A DNA stretch of 64,000 bases from Flavivirga spongiicola (GTDB lineage Bacteria; Bacteroidota; Bacteroidia; Flavobacteriales; Flavobacteriaceae). Both the position numbers and the translations under genes were made by a program. The notes under the pieces were generated by a model. That model did not search any database. It was not told the DNA's origin and saw only the letters and a program-made list of their open reading frames with translations. Where the stretch lies: contig NZ_JAUOEO010000001.1 in assembly GCF_030540825.1 (NCBI RefSeq), positions 1,709,001 to 1,773,000 on the forward strand, read 5' to 3'. Of this stretch, positions 23,382 to 38,195 are shown one piece after another (position 1 is the stretch's first letter; each line of letters starts with the position of its first letter).

Positions 23382-23780
23382 TTGTTCTGGGTCTTGATAA
23401 TGTAACTTCTTAATGTATATTTTATTGCTGTACACTTAGAAATTACAATTACTGTTCCAAAAATAAAAAAATTCTTTAAACTCCTTGTTATTATTAGAAG
23501 TCCTTAACACTAATTTTGTTACAAAAAAGCAAAAATCCAACAGGTAGTGATGGCATTTTTACTTAACCTGCATTATTCACAGTTATTCCCTGCCTGCCGG
23601 CCAGGCAGGTATTCCAAAGCCAAACGCCAGCATCTTTGACAATGCTCTTCATTTTTATGCCTTAAAAGTGGGTGACAATTTATCCTCTAAAAATTATTGT
23701 ACTTCCCAAATCTATTGGCATTTTAACTTTTCATAACGAAAACCATGAATAATACGGATCAAAATTCACATACTTATATT
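23382..23780. other. intergenic gap with one GC-rich hairpin, otherwise featureless
   Basis: A 399-bp gap between hppD and the DUF3108 gene, both on the minus strand. It should hold the DUF3108-kynA-M23-pgi operon promoter. The only striking feature is the GC-rich hairpin at 23589-23609. No ORF of protein-like composition was seen. Confidence 0.5.
23589..23609. repeat. GC-rich hairpin CCTGCCTG-CCGGC-CAGGCAGG
   Basis: An 8-bp perfect stem with a 5-base loop, almost entirely G+C, sits in strongly AT-rich intergenic DNA. There is no T-run, so it is not a standard terminator. The sequence type (CCTGCCTGCC...GGCAGG) resembles dispersed REP-like repeats, but no second copy was seen in this window. 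Confidence 0.55.
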
Positions 23781-24938: not shown

Positions 24939-24944
24939 AATAAA

Positions 24945-25052
24945 GCCCATCCTAACCTTCCCAAAGGGAAGGGACTCAAAACTGGACGGATTCTGAGTAC
25001 TCTATGAATAAAATTTTTAAACGCCAAAAGTCCCCTTTGGGGATTTAGGGGC
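24945..25052. mobile_element. short inverted-repeat element filling the hmgA-hppD gap (MITE/REP-like)
   Basis: This 108-bp element has hairpin-forming ends: 24945-24977 (GCCCATCCTAACCTTCCC, then AAAGGGAAGGGACTC) and 25024-25052 (inverted: GCCCCTAAATCCCC, then AAAGGGGACTTTTGG). The termini match those of the insertion inside ileS (GCCCATCCTAAATCC and GCCTCCTAAATCC). It begins at the last base of the hmgA stop codon and ends 7 bp before the hppD ATG I chose. The ~46-bp interior has no coding capacity. It is likely a non-autonomous member of the same repeat family. Confidence 0.6.
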
Positions 25053-26206
25053 TATAACCAGGATTTATGATAATCCTCATCGGCTATTTTCATAGCTTCT
25101 TCGGTAACCATTAGTGGTTTAAATGTATCTACCATAACAGCAAGCTCATCGGTTTTTGTTTTACCAATACTTCTTTCTGCAGCTCCTGGGTGCGGACCAT
25201 GTGGAATTCCTGCCGGATGCAATGATATATGACCTGCATCAATATCATTTCTACTCATAAAATCGCCATCTACATAATACAACACCTCATCGCTATCTAT
25301 ATTACTATGATTATAGGGTGCTGGAATAGACTCCGGATGGTAATCATACAAGCGCGGTACAAAACTGCACACCACAAAAGCATCGGTTTCGAAAGTTTGA
25401 TGCACTGGTGGTGGCTGATGAATACGCCCAGTTATAGGCTCAAAATCGTGAATTGAAAAAGCATAAGGGTAATTATAGCCATCGTATCCAACCACATCAA
25501 AGGGATGTGATGCATAAACCATTTCTATAATGTCTCCTTGTTTTTTTACTTTTATTAAAAAATCTCCAGATTCATTATAGGTCTCTAACGCTTCTGGTCT
25601 GCGGATATCTCGCTCGCAAAACGGTGAGTGCTCTAGTAATTGCCCAAACCAATTTCTATAACGTTTCGGTGTGTATATAGGTCTGTGAGACTCCACAATA
25701 AACAACCTATTGTCTTCCGTATCAAAATCTATTTTATAAATAATACCTCTTGGCACTAATAGGTAATCTCCATATTTAAAATCGAGATTACCAAACATGG
25801 TTCTTAATTTCCCTGTGCCTTTATGAATAAAAATAAGTTCATCAGCATCTGTGTTTTTATAAAAATAATCGTTTGTAGATTGTTTTGGTGCTGCCAATAT
25901 TATAGCGCAATCGCTATTTACAAGTACTGTTTTTCTACTTTCTAAAAAATCTTGTTCTGGTTTTATTTGAAAACCTTTTAAGCGATACGATTTGATATTA
26001 TTTTTTAAAGCAATTTTTGGAGCTACGCTATACTGCTTCTTTATTTCTTTTACTTGTGTGGGGCGCTGCTCGTGATAACTATTGGTGGACATCCCATCAA
26101 ACCCAATAGTGCCAAATAACTGCTCGTAATACAAACTTCCATCTGGTTTTCTAAATTGAATATGACGTTTATGCGGAATATTTCCTAATTTATGGTAAAA
26201 AGGCAT
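25052..26206 (-). CDS. hmgA: homogentisate 1,2-dioxygenase
   Basis: This 384-residue iron dioxygenase cleaves the homogentisate ring to maleylacetoacetate, the step after HppD. Recognisable family blocks are MPFYHKLGNIPHKRHIQFRK at the N-terminus, EQLFGTIGFDGMSTNSYH near 30, a cupin core (FIHKGTGKLRTMFGNLDFKYGD near 135) and the iron-binding HPAGIPHGPHPGA near 332. It is first in the operon; hppD follows after the repeat element. The later enzymes of the pathway are not in this window. Confidence 0.95.
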   Translation of the reverse strand: MPFYHKLGNIPHKRHIQFRKPDGSLYYEQLFGTIGFDGMSTNSYHEQRPTQVKEIKKQYSVAPKIALKNNIKSYRLKGFQIKPEQDFLESRKTVLVNSDCAIILAAPKQSTNDYFYKNTDADELIFIHKGTGKLRTMFGNLDFKYGDYLLVPRGIIYKIDFDTEDNRLFIVESHRPIYTPKRYRNWFGQLLEHSPFCERDIRRPEALETYNESGDFLIKVKKQGDIIEMVYASHPFDVVGYDGYNYPYAFSIHDFEPITGRIHQPPPVHQTFETDAFVVCSFVPRLYDYHPESIPAPYNHSNIDSDEVLYYVDGDFMSRNDIDAGHISLHPAGIPHGPHPGAAERSIGKTKTDELAVMVDTFKPLMVTEEAMKIADEDYHKSWL

Positions 26207-34382: not shown

Positions 34383-37300
34383 TTAATGTTTTTGTATAAA
34401 TAATTTGGTATTTACATCATCAAAAGTAATTTCTATACCATTATCTAATTTATCAATAATTTCAAGTTCACTGGTTAAGGTTTCTGTTTTTATATAAGTC
34501 ATGTTTGCATTAACAGCATTTATAACATGATCATCTTTTTGAAGCGTTACATCAATTCTATCTGTCACTTCAAACCCTGAATCTTTACGTAGATTTTGTA
34601 TGCGATTAATAAGTTCTCTCGCAATACCTTCTTTTCGTAAATCATCAGATATTGTAACATCAAGAGCCACTGTTAACGATCCTTCGTTTGCAACCAACCA
34701 ACCTTCAATATCTTGAGATGTAATCTCTACATCTTCAAGCTCTAAAGTAATATTTTTTCCATTAATTTCAACATCTAAAACACCATTTTGTTCAATTTTT
34801 TTAATATCGTCAGAATTAAAGGCTTTAATCGTGTTGGCAATTAATTTCATTTCCTTACCAAAACGAGGTCCAAGCGCTTTAAAATTGGGCTTTATCTGCT
34901 TTACTAAAATATCTGAAGCTTCCTCTAAAAGCTCAACACTTTTAACATTAACTTCATGTTTTATTAACTCTGAAACAGCTAATATCTCTTCTTTTTGTTG
35001 ATCACTATCAACAGGAATCATTATTTTTTGAAGTGGCTGACGCACTTTAATCTTTTCCTTTGCTCTTAACGACAAAACTAATGATGATATTGTTTGAGCA
35101 CTTTCCATTTTTCGCTCTAAACTTTTATCGACATAAGCTTCATTATAAACTGGAAAGTTTGCTAAATGTACACTTTCAAATGTTTCCTTCCGGGTGACCG
35201 AATTTAAATCCAAATACAATCTATCCATAAAAAACGGTGCAATTGGAGCTCCTAACTTAGCAATAGTAACCATACAGGTATAAAGTGTTTGGTATGCCGA
35301 AATTTTATCTTGTTCATAGTCGCCTTTCCAAAAACGTCTCCTACTTAAACGAACAAACCAGTTACTTAAATAATCTTGTGTGAAATCTGAAATAACACGT
35401 GCTGCTTTTGTAGGTTCATAATCTGCATAAAAAGCATCTACTTTCTTTATTAATGTATGCAATTCAGACAAAATCCAACGATCTATTTCGGGGCGTTCTT
35501 CTAAAGCTATATCTGCTTCTAAATAACTAAATTTATCCAAATTAGTGTATAAAGTAAAGAACGAATACGTGTTATAAAGTGTCCCAAAGAACTTACGTTT
35601 CACTTCTTCAATACCGTCTAAATCGAATTTTAAATTGTCCCAGGGGTTTGCGTTACTAATCATATACCAACGCGTAGCATCAGCTCCATAATTCCCTAAG
35701 GTTTCAAACGGGTCGGCTGCATTCCCTAAACGCTTCGACATTTTCTGTCCGTTTTTGTCTAACACCAATCCATTAGATACCACATTTTTGTAAGCTACAG
35801 AATCGAAAACCATCGTTCCGATGGCATGTAACGTATAGAACCACCCTCTTGTTTGATCAACACCTTCTGCAATAAAATCTGCTGGAAAAGCCCATCCTAA
35901 ATCCTTCCCTAAAGGAAGGACTTTTAATTTATTACTTATTTTGTTTAAAACAGAATCGATATCACCTATTACTTCTTCATTTGTAAAACGAATGACGTTA
36001 TATCCTAAATCTTCTAAAATTTCCGTTCTTAATTTATCAGCTTCAACGACTTCTGGTTTATTATGGTAACCTCCATCGACTTCAATTACTAACCGTTGTG
36101 ACAAACAAACAAAATCAACTATAAACTCATCTATAATGTGTTCTCGCCTAAATTTATAATTATCAAGCTTTTTCCCCTTTAAAGATTCCCAAAGTACGAT
36201 TTCCGCTTGAGTTGGATTTTTCTTTCTTTCTTCCTTTAATGTTTTAAGCAATTTATACGAAGATTTTCTGGCTGTTTGATATCCAGGAGTTGCTGAAAGT
36301 CCTCCTTTGGAGGATTTAGGAGGCAATTCAAACGGATAATGCCATTGTGCATAAGGCATAGAACCTGAATCAAACCACACGTCAATTAAATCGCTTTCGC
36401 GGAACATTTTTTGACCTGAAGCAGAAATTAATACGATGTCATCAACAATATTTTTATGTAAATCTATCTTAGCGTAGTTTTCTTCAGAATTATTTCCAAT
36501 CTCAAAATCTTCAAAAATATCTTTTGCTAAAACACCTGCTGAAACAGCCTTAGCCATTTCAGATTTTAATTCTTCAACAGACCCAATACAAATTTCTTCT
36601 TTACCATCTTCGGTTCTCCAAATTGGCAAGGGAATTCCCCAATATCGTGAACGTGATAAGTTCCAATCGTTTGCATTAGCTAACCAGTTACCAAACCGCC
36701 CTTCACCAGTACTTTTTGGTTTCCAGTTTATAGTATTGTTCAGTTCGTGCATACGATCTTTAACATCGGTGACTTTAATAAACCAAGAATCTAATGGATA
36801 ATACAGAATTGGTTTATCGGTTCTCCAACAGTTTGGATAACTGTGCTTATATTTTTCAACCTTAAAGGCTTTATTTTCTTCTTTTAACTTAATAGCAATC
36901 TCAACATCAACAGAACGTTCCGGTGCTTCTCCATCATTATAATATTCATTCTTTACATACTTCCCGGCATATTCTCCCATTTCTGGTCTAAAACGCCCTT
37001 GTAAATCTACAAGTGGCACTAAATTATCATGCTCATCTTTTACCAACATTGGGGGCACTTCTGGTTTGGCTTGTTTTGCCACCAAGGCATCATCTGCCCC
37101 AAAAGTAGGCGCAGTGTGTACAATTCCTGTACCATCTTCTGTAGTTACAAAATCTCCAGAAATTATTCTAAAGGCATTTTCTGGATGATCGTTTGGCAAT
37201 GCATAAGGCAATAATTGTTCATATGTAACCCCTACTAAATCCTTCCCTACAAATTCTTTAACTACATAAAACGGAATTTTCTTATCTCCCGATTTGTAGT

Positions 37301-38195
37301 TTAATAATTCCGATTTATCTTCAACTTGATTGAACTTTCCGGAAAATTGGTAGTTAACTAATTTCTTAGCTAAAACAACAAGGATAGGTTCGAACGTATA
37401 TTGATTATAGGTCTCAACTAAAACATAATCAATTTTTGGGCCAACTGTTAACGCAGTATTACTTGGTAATGTCCACGGTGTAGTAGTCCAAGCCATAAAA
37501 TAAACATCGCCTTCATTTTGTAAAAACCCAGGTAATGAATCCCGATTTGCCTTAAACTGAGCGACTACTGTTGTATCAGTGACATCCTGATAAGTTCCAG
37601 GTTGATTTAACTCATGAGAACTCAAACCTGTTCCTGCTTTAGGTGAGTATGGCTGTATAGTATACCCTTTGTAAAGCAAGGTTTTATTATAAATTTGCTT
37701 TAATAACCACCAAACACTCTCCATATATTTAGGGTCGTAGGTAATGTACGGATCGTCCATATCTACCCAATAACCCATCTTTTCTGTCAGATCATTCCAA
37801 ACATCTGTATAACGCATCACAGCTTTACGACAAGCCGCATTGTAGTCTTCTACAGAAATTGTTTTACCTATATCTTCCTTAGTAATACCTAATTCTTTTT
37901 CAACTCCCAATTCAATAGGTAACCCATGAGTATCCCAACCCGCTTTGCGCTTTACCTGGTATCCCTTCATGGTTTTATACCGTGGAAAAATATCTTTAAT
38001 AGCACGTGCTAAAACATGGTGCACTCCAGGAAGCCCATTTGCCGATGGCGGACCTTCATAAAATACATACGGTTCTTTACCTTCTCGGGTAGAAATACTT
38101 TTTTCAAAGATGTTATTTTCTTGCCAATATTGTAGTATCTCATTCGCTACATTTGGCAAGTCAAGTCCTTTATATTCAGGAAATTTAGTGCTCAT
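34383..38195 (-). CDS. ileS: isoleucyl-tRNA synthetase with an in-frame DUF559/Vsr-like nuclease insertion
   Basis: A 1270-residue class I synthetase that charges tRNA-Ile. It has the HIGH-type motif (GVHH, 57-60), an editing domain (about 200-400), DVWFDSGSMPYAQWHYPFE ending at residue 623, the KMSKR loop at 818-822, and an anticodon-binding C-terminal part. Residues 624-769 do not belong to IleRS. They form a complete DUF559 (PD-(D/E)xK, Vsr-like) domain with AEIVLWESLKGKKL, YKFRREH, FIVDF (Asp694), VIEVDGGYH (Glu705, Asp707, His711) and VIRFTNEEV. Without them the length (~1125) is normal for flavobacterial IleRS. The frame is open throughout and all catalytic motifs are kept. Confidence 0.95.
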   Translation of the reverse strand: MSTKFPEYKGLDLPNVANEILQYWQENNIFEKSISTREGKEPYVFYEGPPSANGLPGVHHVLARAIKDIFPRYKTMKGYQVKRKAGWDTHGLPIELGVEKELGITKEDIGKTISVEDYNAACRKAVMRYTDVWNDLTEKMGYWVDMDDPYITYDPKYMESVWWLLKQIYNKTLLYKGYTIQPYSPKAGTGLSSHELNQPGTYQDVTDTTVVAQFKANRDSLPGFLQNEGDVYFMAWTTTPWTLPSNTALTVGPKIDYVLVETYNQYTFEPILVVLAKKLVNYQFSGKFNQVEDKSELLNYKSGDKKIPFYVVKEFVGKDLVGVTYEQLLPYALPNDHPENAFRIISGDFVTTEDGTGIVHTAPTFGADDALVAKQAKPEVPPMLVKDEHDNLVPLVDLQGRFRPEMGEYAGKYVKNEYYNDGEAPERSVDVEIAIKLKEENKAFKVEKYKHSYPNCWRTDKPILYYPLDSWFIKVTDVKDRMHELNNTINWKPKSTGEGRFGNWLANANDWNLSRSRYWGIPLPIWRTEDGKEEICIGSVEELKSEMAKAVSAGVLAKDIFEDFEIGNNSEENYAKIDLHKNIVDDIVLISASGQKMFRESDLIDVWFDSGSMPYAQWHYPFELPPKSSKGGLSATPGYQTARKSSYKLLKTLKEERKKNPTQAEIVLWESLKGKKLDNYKFRREHIIDEFIVDFVCLSQRLVIEVDGGYHNKPEVVEADKLRTEILEDLGYNVIRFTNEEVIGDIDSVLNKISNKLKVLPLGKDLGWAFPADFIAEGVDQTRGWFYTLHAIGTMVFDSVAYKNVVSNGLVLDKNGQKMSKRLGNAADPFETLGNYGADATRWYMISNANPWDNLKFDLDGIEEVKRKFFGTLYNTYSFFTLYTNLDKFSYLEADIALEERPEIDRWILSELHTLIKKVDAFYADYEPTKAARVISDFTQDYLSNWFVRLSRRRFWKGDYEQDKISAYQTLYTCMVTIAKLGAPIAPFFMDRLYLDLNSVTRKETFESVHLANFPVYNEAYVDKSLERKMESAQTISSLVLSLRAKEKIKVRQPLQKIMIPVDSDQQKEEILAVSELIKHEVNVKSVELLEEASDILVKQIKPNFKALGPRFGKEMKLIANTIKAFNSDDIKKIEQNGVLDVEINGKNITLELEDVEITSQDIEGWLVANEGSLTVALDVTISDDLRKEGIARELINRIQNLRKDSGFEVTDRIDVTLQKDDHVINAVNANMTYIKTETLTSELEIIDKLDNGIEITFDDVNTKLFIQKH
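35890..36324 (-). mobile_element. 435-bp element inside ileS: hairpin terminal repeats flanking a DUF559 nuclease domain
   Basis: Ends are 35890-35925 (GCCCATCCTAAATCCTTCCC, then TAAAGGAAGGACTTTT) and 36295-36324, which in reverse complement reads GCCTCCTAAATCCTCC, then AAAGGAGGACTTTC. These are imperfect terminal inverted repeats, each a small hairpin. Between them lies a reading frame for the Vsr-like DUF559 domain. 435 bp is 145 codons, so ileS stays in frame; the ends themselves are translated (LPPKSSKGGLS and LKVLPLGKDLGW). The same ends bound the non-coding element at 24945-25052. It is oriented with ileS. Mobility is inferred; no transposase-like gene is in the window. Confidence 0.75.

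Follow-up and report, generated by a model that had tools for sequence, protein, structure and literature searches.

A candidate mobile element encoding a DUF559 nuclease, found in frame in isoleucyl-tRNA synthetase and other proteins of Bacteroidota

The Rickettsia and Wolbachia palindromic elements (RPE and WPE) are palindromic, carry terminal inverted repeats and lie in frame in conserved protein genes, where they are tolerated (PMC2229807, PMC4224334, both in excerpt). An element with these same traits, located in the isoleucyl-tRNA synthetase (IleRS) gene, ileS, of Flavivirga spongiicola, is described here; it was found in a window, meaning the whole stretch of DNA analysed, of 64,000 nucleotides. 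RPEs measure 105–146 bp and have no gene of their own described in the excerpt (PMC2229807), whereas the DUF559 element is about 440 bp long and carries a nuclease. The same excerpt leaves to later studies how in-frame palindromic repeats move (PMC2229807).

Inteins with homing endonucleases resemble the DUF559 element in being translated in frame in conserved genes, in occupying the same site in orthologues, in their patchy occurrence and in bearing a nuclease. Inteins have conserved splice-junction residues at both ends; the DUF559 element, unlike them, lacks an intein domain, ends in hairpins, has junction residues that vary among hosts and are encoded by those hairpins and, as far as can be read from its sequence, remains in the protein. 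EDxHD (Vsr-like) homing endonucleases, such as I-Bth0305I, possess a homologous nuclease (PDB 3r3p), but they are described as enzymes of phage origin that have several domains and long regions for binding DNA (PMC3943268, in excerpt), while the nuclease of the DUF559 element is one domain embedded in a host protein. According to that excerpt, a homing nuclease usually enters highly conserved genes via a self-splicing intron or an intein (PMC3943268); against this rule stands a homologous nuclease in 17 conserved or household families without sign of either.

The REP/RAYT system and miniature elements (MITEs) are similar in having hairpin ends in inverted pairs and scattered, small, non-autonomous copies. 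Short gene-less copies with the same ends, as in MITEs, occur in recG of the window’s own genome, at 24944–25053 of the window, and in G331 and G177 (genomes and loci are cited by our own labels, G and L). Unlike the REP/RAYT system, no tyrosine transposase was seen between the element ends, where the gene is the DUF559 nuclease. Free-standing DUF559 genes share the domain and also stand beside hairpins, but not inside other genes. Among the best-ranked open-access papers listed we found no report of nuclease-bearing coding palindromes, although an earlier report may exist elsewhere; among open-access papers on DUF559, taken by title and beginning of the abstract, none dealt with an in-gene nuclease element.

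Judged from sequence comparison, the insert is probably an intein-like homing element without splicing, tolerated in protein loops and accompanied by MITE-like derivatives, which belongs to a mobile family of Bacteroidota. The chances seem to us about even that such elements form an undescribed mobile class, namely coding palindromes that are autonomous, encode a nuclease, home into the loops of housekeeping proteins and stay there unspliced as translated passengers.

The ileS insert and its nuclease

The features of the window that concern the element are as follows.

34383..38195, minus strand: ileS, isoleucyl-tRNA synthetase with the in-frame insert, host gene (ORF of 1270 aa and Pfam)
about 35889..36325, minus strand: putative whole mobile element, its limits chosen by analogy to the copies in metH
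36300..36325, minus strand: hairpin with outer guide at the 5′ end in gene sense, translation LPPKSSKGG
35922..36281, minus strand: nuclease domain DUF559 (Vsr/EDxHD-like), extended at the N terminus, catalytic-type residues conserved
35889..35920, minus strand: hairpin with outer guide at the 3′ end in gene sense, translation LPLGKDLGWA
24944..25053, unstranded: nuclease-less MITE-like copy of the same end design, located in the hppD–hmgA gap; the stop codon of hmgA takes two bases from it

The insert comprises IleRS residues 624–769 (146 aa; 35889–36326, minus strand), in an element of about 437 bp whose frame is open throughout. When the whole ORF was searched with Pfam, DUF559 (PF04480) matched residues 656–757 (E 2.5e-31), flanked by tRNA-synt_1, Anticodon_1 and DUF5915; the insert alone matched DUF559 at E 5.9e-33, and its only Pfam matches were DUF559 and MTES_1575. 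Both element ends are hairpins with a G-rich outer guide, mutually inverted and fully translated. In gene sense the left hairpin reads TCCTCC-AAA-GGAGGA (36300–36314) and the right one TCCTTCC-TTTAG-GGAAGGA (35902–35920), the element starting with GCCTCCTAAATCCTCCAAAGGAGGACTTT and ending with AGTCCTTCCTTTAGGGAAGGATTTAGGATGGGCT; on the plus strand it runs from AGCCCATCC at 35889 to GGAGGC at 36324. ORF, Pfam and hairpins all confirm what an earlier note on this DNA had claimed, that a DUF559 domain lies in frame at IleRS residues 624–769 within translated hairpins. The span given there, 35890–36324, is one base short at each end relative to the inferred 35889–36325.

A protein-splicing (Hint) domain was absent from the 1270-aa ORF (Pfam, E 0.001), and Rfam gave 0 matches at E 0.1 over 35500–36700, where no group I or group II intron fold was found. 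In PHROGs the insert weakly matched one HNH family and two families of unknown function. Its nearest named relatives among the matches listed were in Galbibacter (78%) and Winogradskyella (76%). The window’s own genome holds a single ileS match at E 1e-50, and the chimeric gene is therefore presumably functional.

Eleven residues are invariant across 19 inserts: T24, E27, W31, R45, D56, E67, D69, H73, D82, R98 and N101. Of these, E27, D56, H73 and D82 may correspond to the E, D, H, D active-site motif of the EDxHD family. Against the PDB, a profile of the inserts matched 3hrl (1.2e-28) and 3r3p, titled “Mobile intron protein” (4.1e-8), with the next match at 0.13; the insert itself matched the PADLOC “homing endonuclease” at 9e-7. 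By profile comparison the nuclease is homologous to 3r3p, which presumably is I-Bth0305I, the type enzyme of the EDxHD homing endonucleases.

Host proteins and element ends

Across Bacteroidota, 17 host gene families, named by BLAST, Pfam or NCBIfam, proved to hold DUF559 copies in frame. These are IleRS, ValRS, MetRS, MetH, UvrA, MazG, guanylate kinase, PaaZ and adenine deaminase; LeuRS, RecG and HisD, named by reading and confirmed on one example each; HemD, confirmed by Pfam in three of the nine copies scanned and named by length and tree in the other six; and an alpha-xylosidase-like GH31, a RecB-like helicase, a LegC-type aminotransferase and a (cut) chorismate synthase, whose names come from matches below the NCBIfam curated cut-offs. 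The sources were a protein search of 60 genomes, which returned free-standing genes together with matches inside reading frames 573 to 1282 aa long; a set of 40 regions of the same family, from a search with a match in 109 of 299 genomes; and 80 named loci, the best 80 of at least 576 relatives in the genome collection. In a sample of the phylum, 161 of 395 genomes had a match at 1e-15, and 52 of about 150 among the matches listed lay in open frames longer than 300 aa (a hand count, hosts not named). Among 38 plasmid records (ten genera named, none of them Bacteroidota; six unnamed) and three phage records, no carrier of the element was found.

The domain is at the N end in HemD and guanylate kinase, at the C end in HisD and internal in the other hosts. 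Within ileS, leuS and recG the insert occupies the same site in orthologues, and the native loop replaced by inserts is about 3–14 residues long. Comparison shows the elements sitting in frame, with the frame open, in loops of many proteins unrelated to one another or at their termini. The earlier note had proposed that a repeat-bounded element can land inside genes as an in-frame passenger, like a homing endonuclease that does not splice, and the 17 host families, the common ends and the empty sites bear out that proposal, which is further backed by deletion remnants, two-site metH copies and, in some species pairs, the mismatch in divergence between insert and gene. Its other suggestion, that an essential host gene protects the element from loss, finds no support in that form and is not needed, because the hosts include RecG, MetH, MazG and PaaZ, which are probably dispensable. 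HemD (uroporphyrinogen-III synthase) with an N-end DUF559 is a separate lineage, present in nine genomes and forming one clade (L102, L112, L114, L118, L122, L123, L124, L126 and L130), with hairpins often of CTCTCCC type.

In a full copy the DUF559 gene is framed by a pair of palindromic ends, which are inverted to each other and can be translated, and the size in the family is about 440 bp. Each end is built of a pyrimidine arm, a loop, a purine arm and an outer G-rich guide that often terminates in GGCT; unrelated hosts have this design in common, in which a guide resembling TTTAGGRRGGGCT lies outside the hairpin. The copies in UvrA, PaaZ, adenine deaminase, MazG, GH31 and MetRS mostly end in a hairpin followed by a form of TTTAGGRRGGGCT; a few ends, for example one of LegC and one MetRS copy, read otherwise. 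Scoring a hairpin as a pyrimidine/purine stem of at least 5 bp at most 130 nt from the nuclease domain, we counted 124 in-gene and 21 free copies, two copies near contig ends being excluded. The in-gene copies have 248 ends, and a hairpin stood at 203 of them, compared with 13 of 642 control windows from the same loci; 86 of the in-gene copies had one at both ends, 117 at either end and seven at neither. Free-standing copies had hairpins at 31 of 42 ends. The G-rich guide of the 203 in-gene hairpins was outer in 175, inner in 6, on both sides in 9 and on neither in 13, the corresponding figures for hairpins of free copies being 16, 5, 1 and 9.

Two genomes hold one metH with two copies at two sites, G248 (L100) and a Flavobacterium MAG (L195). 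The paired copies are sisters within each genome (tree support 91 and 100), and their identity begins at AGCCCCCC and breaks off at GGGGGGCT, with one extra shared base beyond GGGGGGCT in the L195 pair; the sequence outside is unrelated, and DUF559 is the sole gene seen between the ends. The duplicate metH copies fix the termini of the element, and by comparison they show that it can copy to a second site.

An end-pattern search of 13 genomes, allowing up to two mismatches, gave 41 matches (some overlapping, and in-gene copies included) in 10 of them, and the reversed pattern used as control gave one. The three genomes with none, G002, G011 and G016, all lack an insert at ileS, leuS and recG. 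A stricter pattern had four matches in the window’s own genome and was too strict to reveal the family. Like ends recur elsewhere, against the contrary case that the earlier note had raised, of ends that are ordinary coding sequence without matches in the genome. Other nuclease copies with the same ends, which it had proposed to look for in this genome, were not seen: the two other clear DUF559 genes are free-standing and their ends differ, but hairpins of a broadly similar kind accompany them. No target site duplication or common target motif was found among the insertion sites compared.

Empty sites, derivatives and divergence

IleRS was present in all 40 genomes searched, the window’s own included, and by alignment coordinates the insert occurs in three of them (G000, which is the window’s own, G003 and G008) and is absent from 37. 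The insert is not present in every relative, as it would be in the picture that the earlier note had set against its own reading, in which all Flavobacteriaceae IleRS carry the domain at one place with vertical phylogeny. The empty sites it had proposed to look for among relatives do exist. Among 30 fetched loci the ileS site was readable in 21, of which three are filled, 17 have a plain 10-residue loop (NADLIDKGTT, for example) and one, in G006, holds a different in-frame palindrome. The insert takes the place of the native 10-residue loop and is not added to it, so that an empty gene cannot have arisen by precise loss of the insert alone.

Nuclease-less and decayed forms accompany the full copies. 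At the recG site, readable in 25 of 30 genomes, five copies are full and five have the nuclease deleted in frame, while 15 genomes have none; in the window’s own genome both ends are kept and the nuclease is gone (GGPPQSSQREEAKKSLPSGEISGAS). The leuS site, readable in 26 of 30 genomes, holds six full copies and one decayed copy and is without a copy in 19. In the decayed copy, that of G013 (L029/L234), the catalytic residues of DUF559 are lost and the frame is intact, which may be read as a passenger turning into an ordinary protein insertion. Ends without a nuclease also lie in frame in the LeuRS gene of G177 and close to the beginning of two further ORFs, as well as between genes, and close pairs of ends without a gene occur in G331 and G177. 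The copy between hppD and hmgA is shared by the window’s own genome and G001, G003, G006, G007 and G008, is a remnant in G005 and is absent from seven genomes (14 hmgA ends read). Comparison shows elements without a known splicing device, gained and lost site by site and giving rise to nuclease-less derivatives.

At the hppD–hmgA place, G004, G009 and G011 carry a different palindrome (CATTCCCGCGAAGGCGGGAA and variants). A nuclease-less element in leuS of G177 (L321) lies in a second LeuRS loop, before LELNTMPGWAGSS; in others of the window’s genus this second loop contains SSPSGRLGG.

For 28 species pairs (three for IleRS, 10 for RecG and 15 for LeuRS) the insert was set against its flank in synonymous divergence, with correction for 28 tests. 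In five pairs the insert dS was below the flank dS after correction, namely LeuRS G004–G007 (0.19 versus 0.94, p 1.3e-11, the strongest gap), G004–G009 (0.40 versus 1.22) and G007–G009 (0.39 versus 1.14), and IleRS G000–G003 (0.46 versus 0.96) and G000–G008 (0.32 versus 0.67); in the other 23, all 10 RecG pairs among them, it was not lower. Two LeuRS pairs went in the opposite direction, with the insert more diverged (G001–G008, p 0.03; G006–G007, p 0.02), which indicates that insert dS is not low by nature. Over the 28 pairs dN/dS was 0.06–0.24 for inserts and 0.03–0.08 for flanks, and by the former range the nuclease is kept under purifying selection.

A tree of ileS flanks joins G008, which has the insert, to its sister G001, from which it is absent (support 100). 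Seven genomes were compared over 20 flanking windows; in 17 of these no genome was closer to G008 than G001, ties included, and one of the three exceptional windows adjoins the insert. A search beside the insert revealed no clear co-conversion tract, in contrast to classical homing; the low divergence ends at the insert, which points to movement of the element or conversion between resident elements more than to exchange of host alleles. This comparison shows inserts that have apparently moved apart from the surrounding gene in some species pairs, and the descent of the insert, which if purely vertical would have counted against the earlier note, is in those pairs not purely vertical.

The domain tree comprises 147 domains, 18 labels and 119 columns, with 68 of 142 forks left open; L111, L125, L183 and L188, which repeat other rows, and the broken L200 were omitted. 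Host labels change 27 times on it, the minimum possible being 17 and the mean for shuffled labels 99. RecG copies form one clade (support 97); RecB-like copies are nested within LeuRS, PaaZ stands beside a MetH copy and adenine deaminase among MetRS. Free-standing DUF559 genes of the window’s order fall mostly outside the main in-gene clade, and some free copies of Prevotellaceae fall inside. Copies within a host gene look like site-specific lineages, with jumps to new genes apparently occasional and rarer. AU tests, run without the HemD rows and without seven long or partial rows, did not reject a single origin of the IleRS copies (p 0.48) or of the LeuRS copies (p 0.58), and a claim of several independent invasions of these two sites was dropped on these values.

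Competing explanations and significance

That the element is mobile is well supported, and we infer that its own nuclease drives the spread. The nuclease, produced as part of the host protein, would cut target DNA, and repair of the cut would copy the element into the target, amounting to homing in the manner of an intein. Read-through ends (PPKSSKGG, PSGEISG) and a stop-free nuclease would allow residence in loops, and jumps to new genes would use the palindromic ends. Because there is no splicing, the element would, as we propose, be kept only in tolerant loops.

An alternative that we regard as possible, though unlikely, is that the palindromic ends are mobilised in trans, for instance by a transposase of the RAYT/IS200 type (Y1), with DUF559 as cargo or helper and the hairpin with its G-rich guide as REP ends. 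REPs and RAYTs are such a system elsewhere (PMC3733652, in excerpt), Y1_Tnp matches occur in 8 of 10 genomes searched, and both the sharp ends without co-conversion, which resemble transposition, and the occurrence of nuclease-less copies would fit. However, Y1_Tnp was not found at E 1e-5 in G209, nor was any in G331, which has the duplicated metH copy (a 1.7-Mb MAG, maybe incomplete), and the window’s own genome has only one weak, partial match. The purifying selection on the nuclease is unlike that expected of idle cargo, and between the ends of the metH copies no gene other than DUF559 was seen.

Far less probable is purely passive spread, in which host alleles, or resident elements among themselves, recombine by ordinary homology and the nuclease serves the cell, for example in repair or defence. 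DUF559 is grouped with Vsr-like repair nucleases, free-standing copies exist, and element-to-element conversion would account for the low divergence that ends at the element ends; but first arrival in 17 host families and the second metH copies would be left unexplained, and the flanks of G008 still group with the empty sister G001. Least probable of all, and largely contradicted, is a vertically inherited accessory domain useful in each host and patchy through loss: the clustering of copies of one host gene (as in the RecG clade), the retained frame and nuclease residues, and the lack of a dS difference between insert and flank after correction in most species pairs are in its favour, but it is at odds with one end design common to unrelated hosts, a native loop in empty relatives that exact loss would not restore, a strong divergence mismatch in five pairs, remnants and a decayed copy, and two sister copies within one metH.

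If such an undescribed class exists, its nuclease-encoding palindromes would be the missing driver for the in-frame palindromic repeats first seen in Rickettsia. A palindrome with its own nuclease renders the question of movement testable, as defined ends, empty and full sites and deletion derivatives are available in one genus. Annotators should be cautious with DUF559 in tRNA synthetases, where it is most likely a parasite and no functional part of the enzyme.

The insertion sites also reveal which loops of IleRS, LeuRS, RecG and MetH tolerate some 120 or more foreign residues. In-frame palindromes from other families, of PELVPGSHDEAPKQVRNDK, RHAKLDSASQE, LPSVISSAVEN and TLNAVEGSHK types, were observed in loops used by DUF559 elements, carried by L042 (ileS of G006), L129 and L214 (metH) and L230 and L231 (leuS), and these loops look like putative hot spots where several coding palindromes unrelated to each other insert. 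IleRS in L040 and L041 (ileS of G008 and G003) has one more small in-frame insertion, NLPAGKAG or NQPTGKAG, which is missing from the window’s ileS; an intergenic repeat at 23593–23609 of the window, CCTGCCGGCCAGGCAGG, is possibly related to it.
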